Of a DNA stretch of 21,420 nt, positions 2 through 17,688 are shown piece by piece. Every line of letters starts with the position of its first letter. Positions within the stretch are counted from its first letter, which is position 1. Made by a program: the position numbers and the translations under genes. The notes beneath the pieces are model-generated. The model was not told where the DNA came from and searched no databases. It was given only the letters and a program-made list of their open reading frames with translations. Source of the stretch: a virus; the IMG/VR virus record IMGVR_UViG_3300044701_002123, positions 1 to 21,420 of that record; one strand, written 5' to 3'.

Positions 2-646
2 TTGGCGTCGCACACAGGCGAAAGCACAATTTGTATCAGTGAACGAGGGGCTAAGTCTGTTGTGGGTGTGGAACCTAGAATTGAGTTAATAGATCAGTCA
101 AAAGTTCTAGCAAAACAAAACAATATCAACAATGTTTGTTTTGTTCCTGGTGACTGCACAAACAAAGATCAATTACTAAAATTTTTACAGAATGTAGACA
201 CAGTTACCACGTTTGGTATGTTTTACCACATTGCGGACCATAACGTGTTGATTAGAAATATTTGCGAAAGCGGTGCAAAACATCTGTTAATAGAAACTGA
301 ATATGGACCAGAATCACCTTTGCCAAATATGCATTGGTATGTGGAAAACACCGAAGAAAACATTAGAGGGTGGAATGGGTACGCAGAAATTTTAGCAGGA
401 GTACCTAATTTAAAATGGATCAATGATTGTTTAACAATTTACAATTGGCAAATAATTTATTACAAAGCATTTTATCAGGGTCATAAAACTCAGGATCAAC
501 GACAAAGAATGATAATAGGCGCTGTTAACCTTAAAGATTATAATTCAGAAAAAATTGATACGTTACCCAAAAATCTTTGGGAGTGGAGTATTCAACCAAA
601 TTGCGATGTAGCAAAAATATTTTTTGGTTTTAAAAATGAAATTTAA
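2..646 (+). CDS. Class I SAM-dependent methyltransferase (5' truncated)
   Basis: The reading frame is open to the left edge, so the true start and the first strand of the fold lie outside the window. The visible N-terminus, ASHTGESTICISERGAKSVVG, matches the end of motif I of Rossmann-fold methyltransferases (usually DLGCGTGxxSxxxxxxGAxxVxGVD), followed by GVEPR with an acidic SAM-ribose position. The stretch VDTVTTFGMFYHIADHNVLI corresponds to motif IV and the following helix. The substrate cannot be read; a C-terminal part of about 100 residues has no motif I recognise. The stop codon overlaps the start of the next gene by 11 bases, so the two are probably one transcription unit. Family assignment is fairly secure; any specific role (DNA, protein, small molecule, glycan) is unknown. 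Confidence 0.8.
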   Translation: MASHTGESTICISERGAKSVVGVEPRIELIDQSKVLAKQNNINNVCFVPGDCTNKDQLLKFLQNVDTVTTFGMFYHIADHNVLIRNICESGAKHLLIETEYGPESPLPNMHWYVENTEENIRGWNGYAEILAGVPNLKWINDCLTIYNWQIIYYKAFYQGHKTQDQRQRMIIGAVNLKDYNSEKIDTLPKNLWEWSIQPNCDVAKIFFGFKNEI

Positions 647-1223
647 GTCGGATATTGACATCGATGTGGCTGATAGAGATCAAGCACTTGCTGGTCTTGA
701 TTATACAGCGGCATCCATTATTCGCGACAATAAGAATACCAAACACAATACCGGTGTTTATTTTACACAAATTCCTGTAGATCCTATAACAGGTCGTTGC
801 AGCATTGACTATGAATCTGCAGAAGATCGCGGATATATCAAATTGGATATTCTTAATGTTGGGTTATATCAGCAAGTCAAAAGCGAACAACATTTGCAAC
901 AACTAATGCATCAAGAACCCGAATGGGATCGATTATATGATCCAGAATTTTGTGCAAAACTGATACATATAGGCGCACATTATGACACACTGATCAAAAT
1001 GCCCGAAGCAGTTAACGCAATTCCAAGATTGGCCATGTTTCTAGCCATAATACGTCCAGCAAAGCGACATTTGATTGGAAAAACTTGGCAAGACATTGCC
1101 AAAACTGTATGGGAAAAACCCGAAGACGGCAGCTATTATTTTAAAAAAGCACACGCGGTAGGGTACGCACATCTAGTAGTAGTTAATATGAATCTGCTTA
1201 CCCAAGCTTCCGTACAAGTGTAA
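636..1223 (+). CDS. Miniature DnaE-like protein (DNA polymerase III alpha catalytic motifs)
   Basis: This is a 195-residue protein if translation starts at the ATG at 636; an in-frame TTG at 624 is less likely. Collinear motifs resemble the palm of bacterial replicative polymerase DnaE. SDIDIDVADRDQAL (residues 5-18) matches the PDFDxDFxxxxRDxV motif with the two catalytic aspartates. KHNTG (36-40) matches the GKHAGG loop. GYIKLDILNVGLY (66-78) matches the VKFDFLGLRT motif carrying the third aspartate, here D71. IIRPAKRH (138-145) resembles the LxRPGP motif, and FKKAHAVGYAHLVV (169-182) the FNKSHSxAYxLxS motif. DnaE is over 1000 residues, so PHP, most of the fingers, and the beta-binding and OB parts are absent. 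Whether it polymerises is unknown. It overlaps the preceding gene by 11 bases and converges with the minus-strand gene (26-base overlap). Confidence 0.65.
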   Translation: MKFKSDIDIDVADRDQALAGLDYTAASIIRDNKNTKHNTGVYFTQIPVDPITGRCSIDYESAEDRGYIKLDILNVGLYQQVKSEQHLQQLMHQEPEWDRLYDPEFCAKLIHIGAHYDTLIKMPEAVNAIPRLAMFLAIIRPAKRHLIGKTWQDIAKTVWEKPEDGSYYFKKAHAVGYAHLVVVNMNLLTQASVQV

Positions 1224-1575
1224 TTGATCTACGTTTGCTGCGTTTGGCAGCAATTTCTTTCAAGCTCAACTGTGGACCAAATTTAATCTCCACATCTTTG
1301 CTGTTCATTGTTTTAACAACATTACGGAACGGTGTCCATTCTGCCTTCAAGAACACATTGATAGGTATGAGCCTATTACTTTCCCACCACCAAGTTTCTG
1401 CTAGTTCTAAAAACTGCTGTTTTTGATCTAGAGTTCTAAGAGCGCCGTAATCGTAAATTGTAGTGATCACTTCATCTAGATTTTGTATCACTCCTATATA
1501 TTCATTACCGCCGTATATTAGGTAAGTTAAGAATGGATACTGCTTTAGTAATTGCTGGTAATCAGGTTCGTCCAT
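1198..1575 (-). CDS. Conserved-looking phage protein of unknown function
   Basis: A 125-residue protein on the minus strand, starting at ATG 1575. I recognise the general type from T4-like marine phages but know no function. It has a tryptophan-rich centre (ETWWWESNRLIPINVFLK), an acidic N-terminal half and a strongly basic tail (AAKRSKRRSITLVRKLG), which might contact nucleic acid or a negatively charged surface. No membrane segment or signal peptide is visible. A perfect late promoter element lies on the same strand about 36 bases before the start, so expression is probably late, although no ribosome binding site is evident. Its 3' end overlaps the DnaE-like gene tail to tail by 26 bases. 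It is oriented against every neighbour, which makes its own promoter necessary. Confidence 0.75.
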   Translation of the reverse strand: MDEPDYQQLLKQYPFLTYLIYGGNEYIGVIQNLDEVITTIYDYGALRTLDQKQQFLELAETWWWESNRLIPINVFLKAEWTPFRNVVKTMNSKDVEIKFGPQLSLKEIAAKRSKRRSITLVRKLG

Positions 1576-2090: not shown

Positions 2091-5000
2091 CAGCAAATGT
2101 AAATGTAACAAAAGTTTTATTTAGACGAGGTAACACAGCTCAAAATGCAGCTTATACTGGTATCAACGGTGAAGTCACTGTTGACACACAAGCATTTACA
2201 TTAAGAATTCACGACGGCACTACCGCAGGTGGCACAGTTATAAATGCCGGCGGTGTAGTGGGCAGTTACAGTAACACAAATACTGCGGCTTATTTAGATA
2301 GTCAAAATATCACTAGTGCCAACATTGGCGGCAGTCAGACGTTTGCTAATGCCAATGCTGCTGTGCAGGCCACATCAATCAATAATATCAATGCTAACTT
2401 AGGAGCGTTTCAAACTTATGCCAATGCTACATTTGGTACCAGCAGCTATGCTAATGCCAATGTGCAGAGCTATCTAGCGGCATTTGATGGTAATATACTA
2501 CCAAGCGCAAATGTAACTTATAGTCTTGGTGATGCCACACATCAATGGCGGGACCTGTGGGTAAGCAACAATACCATTTATATTGGTAATACACCTGTTC
2601 GTGTAGACGGCGGAACACTATTGGTCAACAATGCGCCGATAACTGCCGGATCAACTTATGGTAATGCCAATGTGGCCACATATTTGTCCAGAGGTAATGT
2701 CACTGTTGGCAACATAACTATTCAAGATGAATACGATCAACAGTGGCGGTTTAGCAATGGTGCATTGATTTGGCCTGCTGGAGACGGCACACCTACTGGA
2801 CCATATATAGAGGGTAGTAGTTTGATGACAGTATACCCTGAAAATGACGGTGAGTTCAGGATTCAAACTTATTCTACAACTGCTGTAGGATCTAGGCAGT
2901 GGAAATTTACTTCTGAAGGTAATTTAATTGTACCCGACGATGCTACCATACACAGTGATCTAGATCTAAGACTGTATGCAGAGACAGGCAACATAGCACT
3001 AGGCAACCAGAACGGCACGTGGATGTTTGACATTGATGGTCGATTCACAGCGCCCGGCGATGTGTACGGTCAATACTTTACTGTGCGCGGTGGCGGCTTT
3101 TCTGGCGATGAAATTGGTAGTTTAGGATACGGTGGCGACATAATAGAATTATATGGAACAAACGGTGTTAGAATATCAACCGTTGGTGAAGGTGGCCCAA
3201 TATGGCAATTTGGCACAGATGGCCGACTGATTATTCCCGGCGGCCCGTTCTTGGGATTTGCAGAATCAGGTCCTGTAGTAGCCAACCTTACGACTCTGTC
3301 ATCCGAATTAGGACCGGTGGAAATTTATTCTCAAGAATCGGTCACCCTTTCAGCTAACAACACAGTCTGGACTTTTGACAGCACAGGCAACCTAACCTTA
3401 CCGGGTAATGCTATTGTCGGTGCTTCTGGCTATAGCATCAGTCTCATTGCTAGTAACGACGGTGTGGCCACTGCTGGTACCGTTAACATTGCAACTTCTA
3501 ATCCGGCCATTGGTGAATCCTTTAATTGGCAGTTTAACTCCTTGGGCGAATTAGAACTGCCACAAGGTGGGTTGATTAAAGAAGGTGGTGGGCCATTTGG
3601 TAGCACTATCACACTAGAACCGGCCAACATCACCGACGGTGATCAAACCTTGTTGATATACCCTACCTTTGCAGAAGGTAACCATCTACACCTGACCACA
3701 GGCAATCTTTACAACACTGAACTGTATCTGGGCAGTGACGAGCTATATGTAAAATTAACCAACACAGGCGGCATAGACATCCGTACCAATGACAATCAAG
3801 GTAATGTTGCTATATGGCAATTTGATACCGGCGGCAACTTGATTACATCAACCGGGCTGTCCATTGGACCCATCCAGGCCCCTATTCCCGGAACAGATAT
3901 CAATCAGGCCGCAGATGAATACCTTTCAATTACAAGCAAAGGGATCACTGGAATTACCACAGTGGGTTGGGCAGAAACACCTTATGGCCCTAGCAACATA
4001 GCTACCATTGACTTCAACGGCACAACCGACGGTGCTGTTAGAATCGTCACCGGTAACAATTTGACCGGCAACTATAGCTGGACATTTGCCGCCAACAGTG
4101 AAACATATTTGCCAAGCGGTTTGCTGTTTGGTGCAATGGGCGAAGTGTACATGGCAGGTGGCACAGCCAGCTTTGGTAGCACTGCCTATGATGTGCAAAT
4201 CACGGCCAATTCCAATGGTTACAGCCAGACATGGGTGTTTGATCCTGCTGGCAATTTAACTTTACCATTGGAAGGCTCAATCAACTACTCCAACGGCACT
4301 AGCATATTAGATGGCATTAGTGGAACATATGGCAACGCTCAGGTAGCCGAGTACCTAGCTAACTATGATGGGACAATAAACTTTACAGCCAGCCCTGCTA
4401 CAATCAACACCGGTGAAATCACCGCGGCCAATGTGAGCAGTACCAACGGATTCTTCTGGGGCAATGGCACACCTTACAGCACGGGAGGTGGTGCAGGAAC
4501 ATATGGCAACACCGAAGTAGCAGCGTATCTGTTGACCTTTGCCAATGCCAACGTTGCAACACTTAACACCACAAGTGCCAATATCACAACACTTAGAGCA
4601 GCCAACTTTAACAGTGCAAATGCAGTTATCAGTGGCGGTTATATCAGTGCATTGACAAACGCTAGTATAATAACTTCAACTGTGGTTACAGAAAATATAA
4701 CCAATGGTAATGTAACTACATTGCGAGCAACTAACCTTGGAACCGCAAATGCAGTTATAAGTGGTGGTTATATAAGTGCTATGACCAATGCCTATGTAAC
4801 ACTTAGCCGTGTCACAAACTTTAGCACTGGTAATGCCTTCCTAACTGGCGGCTATATTAACAGCTTTACCAATGTGTATGCAACCACAGGTTCGTTTACT
4901 AATCTTGATACCAGTAACATTTTGGTCACAGGCGGATACATCAGTAGCATTGCCAATGCCACAGTGTCGGGCAATGTCACAGCCGGTAATCTTATTGGTT

Positions 5001-7261: not shown

Positions 7262-8290
7262 ATGTTAGATTCTATCCAGCAATCAGTATTGCAATTGTTA
7301 CCTGCCCGCAGAAAAACGGGTCAGAATGGCTGGACCAGTTTTAACGCACCTTGCTGCACACATAATGGAGAAACTGCCGACACAAGAGGCAGAGGCGGAA
7401 TAAAAACAAATACAGGACAGGTCTCGTATCATTGTTTCAATTGTGGATTCAAAGCCAGCTTCATCCCCGGTCGGCATTTGACATTTAAGTTTAGAAAACT
7501 ACTTGCCTGGTTAGGCGCCGATGATTTAACTGTCCGAAGATTAGTTATTGAAGCAGTCAGACTACGAGAATTAGTTGCACCCGAGGAACTAGCAAAAGAG
7601 CCAGAACAAGAAATTGCGTATGAAGCCAGATTGTTACCTGATGGTGCAATAAGTTTAAGTGAATGGACCACTTATCTTGCGTTACAAGGCGATGAATACA
7701 CAGTACCCGATCATGTTGTAAGAGGTGTTCACTACATCAATCAAAGAAAAATTGATTTGAACAAATATGAATTTTTCTTAACTGACAACGAAGCGTATAA
7801 TTTGCATCGTAGAATAATCGTACCTTACTACTACAAACGTGAAATTGTTGGCTATACAGCTAGAACTTGGGAAGCAGATGTAAAACCCAAATATTGGTCC
7901 AGTCATCCCGCGGATTTTGTGTTTAATTTAGATACGCAACAACACGATTGGAAGTTTGTTATTGTATGTGAAGGCCCGTTTGATGCTATGAGCGTGGATG
8001 GTGTTGCAGTAAGTGGATCAGAAATATCAGACACTCAAATTGAACAAATTGACAGATTACAACGTGAAGTGATTGTAGTCCCGGACCGAGATCGAGCCGG
8101 ACGTAAACTAGTCGATCGTGCCATAGAAGCTGGATGGACTGTTAGTTTTCCCGTATGGCAGGAAACTTGCAAAGACATCAACGAAGCTGTTATCAAATAT
8201 GGAAAATTATTTGTTATCAAGGCCATTCTTGAATCTAAGGAAACAAGTCGTTTAAAAATTGAACTTAAAAAGAAAAAACTATATAGTTAA
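7262..8290 (+). CDS. 61: DNA primase, T4 gp61-like (zinc finger plus TOPRIM)
   Basis: A 342-residue primase that should make RNA primers on the lagging strand with the adjacent helicase. The N-terminal CHC2-type zinc site is visible as CCTH (residues 31-34) and CFNC (58-61). The catalytic core includes RRIIVPYYYKREIVGYTART (183-202). The TOPRIM metal-binding positions are the glutamate in VCEGPFDAMS (E237) and the aspartates in VVPDRDRAG (D275, D277). Length agrees with T4 gp61 (342). The last residues are very lysine rich, which may aid DNA binding. The start ATG falls at the predicted transcription start of a sigma-70 promoter, and the stop is followed by the helicase ATG after one base, so the two products are made together as a primosome. 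Confidence 0.9.
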   Translation: MLDSIQQSVLQLLPARRKTGQNGWTSFNAPCCTHNGETADTRGRGGIKTNTGQVSYHCFNCGFKASFIPGRHLTFKFRKLLAWLGADDLTVRRLVIEAVRLRELVAPEELAKEPEQEIAYEARLLPDGAISLSEWTTYLALQGDEYTVPDHVVRGVHYINQRKIDLNKYEFFLTDNEAYNLHRRIIVPYYYKREIVGYTARTWEADVKPKYWSSHPADFVFNLDTQQHDWKFVIVCEGPFDAMSVDGVAVSGSEISDTQIEQIDRLQREVIVVPDRDRAGRKLVDRAIEAGWTVSFPVWQETCKDINEAVIKYGKLFVIKAILESKETSRLKIELKKKKLYS

Positions 8291-8291
8291 T

Positions 8292-9737
8292 ATGACAAAA
8301 GATTATAATATAGACATTCAGAAATTGTTTTTAGAAATGATGTTGCAAGATGCAGAGACTTACGTGCGTGTGCAGAACATTTATAATTCTGAAAACTTTG
8401 ATCGAAGCCTAAGAGAAACTGCGGCTTTCATTAAGAAACACAGTGATGATTATAAAACATTGCCCACACGAGAACAGATACAAGCTGCGACCGGCGTGGT
8501 GCTTCGAGAAGTGCCCGATCTTAAAGAAGGACACTACGATTGGTTTTTACAAGAGTTTGAAGGATTTAGTAGAAAACAAGAGTTAGAAAGAGCTATTCTC
8601 CGGGCCGCTGATTTAATTGAAAAGGGTGAGTTTGATCCAGTTGAAAAATTGATCAAAGACGCGGTACAAATCAGTCTCACTAAAGACTTGGGTATGGACT
8701 TTTGGGAAGATCCCGAAGGAATGATCACCAGGTATTTTGATAGTGGTGGGCAGGTCAGTACAGGTTGGCCGCAACTAGATAAGTTGCTCTACGGTGGATT
8801 CAGTCGAGGTGAGCTAAACATTTTTGCCGGCGGATCAGGATCAGGTAAGAGTTTGGTCATGATGAATATTGCACTCAATTGGGTTCAAGCAGGACTACAC
8901 GGAGTATATGTTACTCTAGAACTCAGTCAAGAATTAACAGGTTTGCGTACCGCGGCTATGCTTACAAACATGAGTACAAAAGATATTCGTAAAGACAAAG
9001 AAACAGCAGCCCTTAAAATTAAAATGGTAAGCAAGAAGTCCGGCAGTTATCAAGTCAAAGCATTGCCGGCACAAAGTAACATTAATGACATTCGTGCATT
9101 TTTAAAAGAGTATCAAATTCAATCTGGTCGTAAAATTGATTTTATAATGATTGATTATTTAGACTTGTTGATGCCAGTAAGTGCAAAAGTTAGCCCCAAT
9201 GACTTGTTCGTTAAAGACAAATATGTTTCTGAAGAACTGCGTAATTTATCTAAAGAGTTAGGGGTATTAATGGTCACTGCCAGTCAGTTAAATCGCGGAG
9301 CAGTGGATGAAATTGAATTTGATCACAGTCATATTTCCGGCGGTATCAGTAAAATTAACACAGCAGATAATGTATTTGGTATTTTCACTTCACGTGCAAT
9401 GCGCGAGCGTGGGCGATATCAAATACAGTGTATGAAGTCACGTAGCAGTACCGGAGTAGGACAGAAAGTTGATCTGGAGTACAACATCGAAACCATGCGT
9501 ATAACCGATCCTGGGGAAGATGCTGCCGAAGCAGGAGTAATTGGATACGGACGACCTGGGGGCCCTAGCGCACCTGACAGCATAATGAGTCAAATCAAAG
9601 CCAGCAGCACTTCGTCTCCACCAATGATTGCAGCAAAGCCAAAGCCGGGATTTGATCTTGAAAAATCAGTGCAGGCAAATGTAGATAGCACAAAACTAAA
9701 GCAAATGCTCGCTAGCTTAAAAACAAAAACAGAATGA
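8292..9737 (+). CDS. 41: Replicative DNA helicase, T4 gp41/DnaB-like
   Basis: A 481-residue RecA-fold hexameric helicase that unwinds DNA ahead of the fork and recruits the primase. Start ATG 8292 follows the primase stop by one base; an in-frame upstream start lies inside the primase gene and is less likely. The Walker A motif is GGSGSGKS (180-187), the catalytic glutamate follows in YVTLELS (207-212), and Walker B is FIMIDYLDLL (284-293). A SQLNRG segment follows and the HISGG motif precedes the C-terminal part, as in DnaB-type helicases. The N-terminal 150 residues are helical, as expected for the primase-interacting domain. The C-terminal tail is rich in S, P and K. The gene ends in an ATGA overlap with the radical SAM gene. 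Confidence 0.92.
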   Translation: MTKDYNIDIQKLFLEMMLQDAETYVRVQNIYNSENFDRSLRETAAFIKKHSDDYKTLPTREQIQAATGVVLREVPDLKEGHYDWFLQEFEGFSRKQELERAILRAADLIEKGEFDPVEKLIKDAVQISLTKDLGMDFWEDPEGMITRYFDSGGQVSTGWPQLDKLLYGGFSRGELNIFAGGSGSGKSLVMMNIALNWVQAGLHGVYVTLELSQELTGLRTAAMLTNMSTKDIRKDKETAALKIKMVSKKSGSYQVKALPAQSNINDIRAFLKEYQIQSGRKIDFIMIDYLDLLMPVSAKVSPNDLFVKDKYVSEELRNLSKELGVLMVTASQLNRGAVDEIEFDHSHISGGISKINTADNVFGIFTSRAMRERGRYQIQCMKSRSSTGVGQKVDLEYNIETMRITDPGEDAAEAGVIGYGRPGGPSAPDSIMSQIKASSTSSPPMIAAKPKPGFDLEKSVQANVDSTKLKQMLASLKTKTE

Positions 9738-16991: not shown

Positions 16992-17378
16992 ATGGCTTAC
17001 TCAGGTCAAGTCTTGGATCATTATGAAAATCCAAGAAACGTAGGTAAATTAGATAAAAATGATCCCGCAGTGGGAACAGGCCTAGTTGGTGCTCCTGCTT
17101 GCGGTGACGTACTACAACTGCAAATAAAAGTCGAAGACAACATCATTACCGATGCAAAATTTAAGACATACGGTTGCGGATCAGCGATTGCAAGTTCGTC
17201 GCTGGTTACGACGTGGCTTATGGGAAAGAGTCTTGACGAAGCAGCATCAATTCAGAATACTCACATCGCCGAAGAACTCGCGTTACCTCCTGTTAAAATA
17301 CACTGTAGCATATTGGCAGAAGATGCAATTAAAGCAGCATTAGCAGATTACAAGGCAAAACATGATACAGTTAACTGA
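16992..17378 (+). CDS. iscU: Iron-sulphur cluster assembly scaffold IscU
   Basis: A 128-residue IscU/NifU-N type scaffold on which 2Fe-2S and 4Fe-4S clusters are built from IscS sulphur. Ligands are intact: C37 and D39 in APACGD, C62 in YGCGSAIASSS, and H104/C105 in KIHCSILAEDAIKAA. LPPVK (98-102), the recognition site of the HscA chaperone, is retained, so it should work with host HscA/HscB and IscS, none of which is encoded here. Length matches bacterial IscU. The gene has a strong ribosome binding site (AGGAG, 16981-16985). It overlaps iscA by 17 bases. The pair is an auxiliary metabolic module that could keep cluster supply going during infection. Confidence 0.95.
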   Translation: MAYSGQVLDHYENPRNVGKLDKNDPAVGTGLVGAPACGDVLQLQIKVEDNIITDAKFKTYGCGSAIASSSLVTTWLMGKSLDEAASIQNTHIAEELALPPVKIHCSILAEDAIKAALADYKAKHDTVN

Positions 17379-17688
17379 TATTGCAGCCAGAAAAGTCAAG
17401 CAACAATTAGACAAGCGTGGTAAAGGACACGGCATCATGATTGGAGTTAGAACAACCGGTTGTTCCGGCTTGGCTTATAAACTAGAGTATGTTGATGTGC
17501 CGCCTGTGACTAGAGACTGGATGAAATACGACAGCAATGGCGTCACTGTATGGGTAAACGGAAAAGACCATCCGTATGTGAACGGTCTTACAATGGACTA
17601 CAAACGTCAAGGGCTTAATGAAGGTTTTGAGTTTATAAATCCCAATGAACGCGATCGCTGCGGCTGTGGAGAAAGTTTTCGAATTTGA
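17362..17688 (+). CDS. iscA: A-type iron-sulphur carrier IscA/HesB
   Basis: A 108-residue A-type carrier that passes iron or clusters to target proteins. The three conserved cysteines are present: C34 in RTTGCSGLAY, and C100 and C102 in DRCGCGESF. Length matches bacterial IscA (about 107). One difference is the central loop, VPPVTRDWMKYDSNGVTVWV, which is slightly altered from the usual D-hxxxxG-hxhhhD region. It overlaps iscU by 17 bases, so translation is coupled, and its stop overlaps the TTG start of the next gene. The presence of both scaffold and carrier suggests a functional delivery route, possibly to the phage radical SAM enzyme or a host target. Confidence 0.95.
   Translation: MIQLTDIAARKVKQQLDKRGKGHGIMIGVRTTGCSGLAYKLEYVDVPPVTRDWMKYDSNGVTVWVNGKDHPYVNGLTMDYKRQGLNEGFEFINPNERDRCGCGESFRI

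Follow-up and report, generated by a model that had tools for sequence, protein, structure and literature searches.

A 195-residue viral protein is probably the metal-binding half of the split, minimal DNA polymerase III alpha of jumbo phages

A split minimal DNA polymerase III alpha was described in the group 2.2 jumbo phages by Iyer et al. 2021 (PMC7824862), who predicted that the split enzyme has polymerase activity and suggested a resemblance to an ancestral Pol III. In that system, an NTP-binding N-terminal part and an Mg/DNA-binding C-terminal part (from here on, the N-unit and the C-unit) are two stand-alone proteins with distant genes, and a family B polymerase is encoded alongside; the phage group includes Atu_ph07. 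CBB_328 of phage CBB has been described as a truncated alpha subunit (PMC5259590) and gp316 of phage Atu_ph07 as an alpha subunit (PMC6102473). By size and by their match to PF07733, both belong to the family of the partner N-unit and not to that of the C-unit. PF07733 has also been reported as the single distinguishing gene that more than half of the members of a marine jumbo-phage cluster carry. We found no experimental test of the split enzyme in the open-licence literature. Here, we analyzed a C-unit gene in a 21,420-nucleotide stretch of viral DNA (positions 1 to 21,420 of IMG/VR record IMGVR_UViG_3300044701_002123; referred to as the window). Long relatives of this gene have the two stand-alone proteins, the distant genes and the family B polymerase of the group 2.2 system, and we found no difference for the window copy. 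As published work already covers the family, the split and the likely function, and nothing in the window copy deviates from it, we regard the copy as an ordinary member of an already known family.

The C-unit gene of the window (636..1223, + strand; phrog_11778), which was assigned based on profile, conservation and structure model, runs from an ATG at 636 to a stop codon at 1223 and encodes 195 aa. The list of open reading frames holds a 199-aa version that starts from an upstream TTG at 624; orthologues begin at the methionine of MKFKSDID. Five motifs, all on the + strand, have counterparts in Escherichia coli DnaE, i.e., DIDID (residues 6-10; 651..665) corresponds to PDFDVDF with D401/D403/D405, KHNTG (residues 36-40; 741..755) to KHAGG with H511 and G514, IKLD (residues 68-71, including D71; 837..848) to VKFD with K553 and D555, RPAK (residues 140-143; 1053..1064) to R639 P640, and FKKAHAVGYA (residues 169-178; 1140..1169) to FNKSHSAAYA with H760 and Y764. 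The counterparts of KHNTG and IKLD were assigned using hhalign. The original prediction had quoted four of these motifs (DIDID, IKLD, KHNTG, and FKKAHAVGYA), and direct reading of the window finds all four, in the order of DnaE. In a profile search, PHROG 11778 ("DNA polymerase") matched residues 2-191 of the protein (E 1.7e-63). In single-sequence searches, Pfam, NCBIfam and PDB gave zero matches to the 195-aa protein, and the relation to DnaE is visible only via the PHROG profile, profile-profile comparison and structure comparison. Because plain single-sequence searches were empty, reading the motifs by eye had caught what such searches miss.

For profile-profile comparison, we used 84 C-units and 86 DnaE sequences; the latter comprised E. 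coli DnaE, six DnaE from phages, and sequences from bacterial genome loci that had been filtered by length. The two profiles aligned with a score of 47.0 (E 2.5e-5 for one comparison), while the highest score among 20 DnaE profiles with shuffled columns was 26.1 and that of the reversed DnaE profile was 13.3. Thus, the match to DnaE/PolC on which the original prediction depended was obtained. In this alignment, hhalign pairs H37/G40 of the C-unit with H511/G514 of DnaE, E63 with E547, K69/D71 with K553/D555, R140/P141 with R639/P640, and H173/Y177 with H760/Y764. DIDID is placed on D401/D403/D405 only by a weak secondary profile match (E 0.04); this placement agrees with the pattern PDFDVDF/SDIDIDF and with the structural alignment, which starts at DnaE 397-399. 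An AlphaFold2 model of the C-unit based on 74 sequences had a mean pLDDT of 87.9; alignments for structure models contained IMG/VR rows only. Using Foldseek, matches to this model were borderline (best E 6.3e-3), with DnaE ranked first. When PDB candidates were realigned to the model using VIA, DnaE and PolC structures took all of the first 15 ranks, with Z-scores of 9.3-6.1 and rmsd values of 3.4-4.6 over 178-190 of the 195 residues; the PDB entry ranked next is unrelated and had a Z-score of 3.4 over 88 residues. Accordingly, the predicted fold superposes on the palm of DnaE/PolC, and the resemblance of the C-unit to DnaE is true homology.

The C-unit, which matches the Mg- and template-binding part of DnaE from just before PDFDVDF onward, spans residues 397-784 of E. 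coli DnaE in half the residues. The distance from DIDID to KHNTG is ~27 residues compared to ~106 in DnaE, in which the thumb lies in this interval, and that from RP to FKK is ~29 residues compared to ~117 in DnaE, in which it holds the fingers. Shared with DnaE/PolC are the C-terminal half of the palm, the core fold of the fingers, the three aspartates, and the equivalents of K553, H511, R639-P640, H760 and Y764. Conservation, alignment and model all place the three catalytic aspartates in a Pol-beta-type palm. By contrast, the 195-aa C-unit has none of the PHP, thumb, clamp-binding and C-terminal domains of DnaE, including the OB and tau-binding parts, and the profile alignment shows neither the YQEQ segment nor R709 of the fingers. 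The proposed origin of the reduced palm in a bacterial replicase is therefore supported by fold and profile, but of that palm only the C-terminal half remains, together with a remnant of the fingers.

The C-unit family is represented in 63 isolate phage records, with 37-49% identity over 92-99% of the protein among the 50 matches listed, and in at least 598 stretches in IMG/VR. The isolate records are nearly all genomes of jumbo phages, or partial records of their kin, and include RaK2, 121Q, CBB, PA5oct, Atu_ph07, SCTP-2 and XacN1. The window C-unit is 65-81% identical to the environmental copies kept and ~49% identical to its nearest isolates. In the phage records listed, the protein is often annotated as a hypothetical, membrane or structural protein. 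For gp074 of Atu_ph07, the RefSeq start is at position 4082 of the locus, 27 codons inside the conserved frame (4001-4576 of the locus), and the annotated protein, therefore, is without the DIDID metal-binding motif; this start has probably been mis-called.

Across 84 relatives, the columns of D6, D8, D10, K69, D71, H173 and Y177 are fixed but for two rows; that is, the catalytic aspartates of DnaE are not only retained in the window protein, as originally predicted, but near-invariant in the family. DIDID is fixed in 83 of the 84 rows, and the remaining row (SCTP-2) is truncated before the motif; the full-length SCTP-2 protein does carry DIDID, and the gap represents this truncation. Similarly, the K69 and D71 positions of IKLD are kept in 83 of 84 relatives, the exception being one metagenomic copy with T/A, in which the changes are limited to that short stretch. 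We rejected this copy as proof of degenerate members because it is a single copy with local changes. H37 and G40 of the KHNTG loop as well as H173 and Y177 are invariant (84/84). K143 of RPAK, next to RP, is an invariant specific to the phage proteins, as judged from the same alignment and the comparison with DnaE. Among close pairs of C-units, the median dN/dS was 0.06, i.e., the unit is under purifying selection.

C-family polymerases grip the triphosphate with a GRGS turn located upstream of the catalytic aspartates. By sequence reading, this segment is absent from the 195-aa C-unit of the window. In 12 of 12 long C-unit records, we identified one small protein that matches only positions ~16-98 of the PF07733 model, and N-units alone account for the PF07733 matches above the cut-off in these long relatives. 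A second, weak PF07733 match in phage CBB (17.1 bits) has three stops inside, and we took it as a chance match. N-units are 169-182 aa long, with the motif GxGRGSS or GxGRGSC and a C-terminus that reads EFLK or similar; RGS does not vary among 61 sequences. The N-unit profile aligned to DnaE with a score of 78.5-78.9, compared to at most 24.9 for shuffled profiles, and this alignment stops at DnaE residue 393. A model of the N-unit (pLDDT 89.6) superposed on residues 279-393 of E. coli DnaE with Z-scores of 8.8-9.9 and on other DnaE/PolC with Z-scores up to 10.7, while the next, unrelated structure had a Z-score of 2.2; the fold assignment covers all but the first 70-75 residues. Just before the break, the N-unit has Glu where DnaE has the invariant R390.

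N-units end within 0-3 residues of the equivalent of DnaE 393, and C-units start a few to ~15 residues before the equivalent of D401. Because profiles and models have the N-unit ending at 393 and the C-unit starting at 397, the two units together account for one palm that is cleanly divided between DnaE 393 and 397. DnaE is one chain of 1160 aa, while the phage N- and C-units are two chains totaling ~365 aa. With the NTP-binding half being a separate protein encoded by a distant gene, the C-unit alone falls short of both a complete palm and a complete minimal enzyme, and the suggestion that it is a minimal enzyme by itself was not borne out. DnaE is known to host split inteins, e.g., cyanobacterial DnaE, and the two halves could in principle be spliced to one polypeptide in that manner. 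We consider this extremely improbable; the N-unit ends and the C-unit starts too near the break to leave room for intein segments, and the sequences of the units, in which such segments are absent at the break, refute it.

The two units co-occur. Among the C-unit phage records listed, 49 of 50 recur in the N-unit list, and the exception is a 109-kb partial record. Starting from N-unit contigs of >200 kb, four of five also contained a C-unit; a 288-kb N-unit contig had no detectable C-unit, and represents either a fragment or a real loss. The two genes are tens to hundreds of kb apart. We observed no fusion and no close pairing of the units in ~180 loci in which flanks of ~6-8 kb were read, and operon logic, therefore, gives the pairing no support. 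The N-unit gene is not in the 21-kb window, which is itself a fragment, and is present in 12 of 12 long relatives. Likewise, a family B polymerase gene is present in all 12 long C-unit records and is not among the ORFs examined in the 21-kb fragment. The presence of this gene in all long records argues that the pair of units is not the sole replicase. A DnaQ-type exonuclease (PF00929) was considered as a fixed companion and rejected, as it was found in only 8 of 15 records.

In the window, the 3' end of the C-unit gene overlaps with a convergent gene for a 125-aa protein of unknown function (1198..1575, - strand; phrog_11637), and a convergent small ORF at this position recurs in most of the isolates examined. 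In RaK2, 121Q, CBB, PA5oct and others, the order is C-unit, convergent small ORF, virion protein, primase and DnaB helicase. In the window, long repetitive virion-like ORFs separate the convergent ORF from the primase and helicase genes at 7262-9737. The primase is of the DnaG/T4 gp61 type (7262..8290, + strand) and was assigned based on profile matches and the conserved neighborhood; the replicative helicase is of the DnaB/T4 gp41 type (8289..9737, + strand; the start is the ATG used in the search) and also lies in the conserved neighborhood. A fatty acid desaturase gene (PF00487; 6543-7247) is located between the virion-like genes and the primase gene. The window also encodes a radical SAM protein (PF04055; 9734-10735) and, side by side, NifU/IscU-type scaffold and IscA-type iron-sulfur assembly proteins (16992-17688).

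The original prediction had offered, as a second option, that the protein is a DnaE mimic. Such a protein would be catalytically inactive and would bind either host DnaE or replication factors of host or phage origin (clamp, loader, exonuclease). The small size of the C-unit, its missing thumb and fingers parts, and the family B polymerase of these phages are compatible with a mimic. However, substitutions of the three aspartates, K69, H173 or Y177 are almost absent among the 84 relatives, and the partner, with its invariant RGS, provides the half of the active site that the C-unit lacks. Moreover, the clamp-binding, OB and tau-binding parts of DnaE are located beyond the range retained in the C-unit. 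We therefore disfavor a mimic and judge it quite unlikely. Because the catalytic residues are near-invariant, the RGS of the N-unit is invariant and dN/dS is ~0.06, the sequence data favor a working active site over a dead mimic.

The observed homology, complementary and abutting palm coverage, co-occurrence and purifying selection of the two units are consistent with the C-unit being, as sequences and models suggest, the metal-binding half of a two-protein, phage-specific minimal C-family (Pol III alpha-like) nucleotidyltransferase, and we consider this the probable function. In such an enzyme, the N-unit (~170 aa) would supply a helical segment and the GRGS triphosphate-binding turn, equivalent to DnaE 279-393. 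The C-unit, which has lost the thumb and most of the fingers, would contribute all three catalytic aspartates, the equivalent of K553, the H511-like loop and the fingers helix containing H760. The units would associate non-covalently and rebuild one Pol-beta-type palm, which is predicted to add nucleotides to DNA, and the pair would most likely be an accessory or repair polymerase beside the family B replicase of the phage. Because the thumb, YQEQ and R709 are absent and R390 is replaced by Glu, the grip on the template and the contacts to the dNTP must differ from those in DnaE. The loss of the thumb and of the template-side fingers, together with phage-specific invariants such as K143 beside RP, would also fit an active but non-templated nucleotidyltransferase that uses an end, a protein or a nucleotide as its acceptor substrate. 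The C-unit retains the H511-like loop and the fingers helix of DnaE, and primase and helicase genes are nearby; we find this non-templated activity unlikely. More broadly, it is conceivable, if doubtful, that the two chains (~365 residues) form an active nucleotidyltransferase that has no thumb and has a role beyond ordinary templated replication; it would then be the smallest C-family catalytic core known.

What is new here is a controlled test of the break point (DnaE 393/397), of the co-occurrence of the halves and of the conservation of the catalytic residues; none of the implications of a split polymerase is new with the window copy itself. If the pair of N- and C-units is active, it would represent the smallest functional core in the family of bacterial replicases, and the palm could be cut between its triphosphate- and metal-binding halves and then reassembled. 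Why phages with a family B replicase retain this pair would then become a question.
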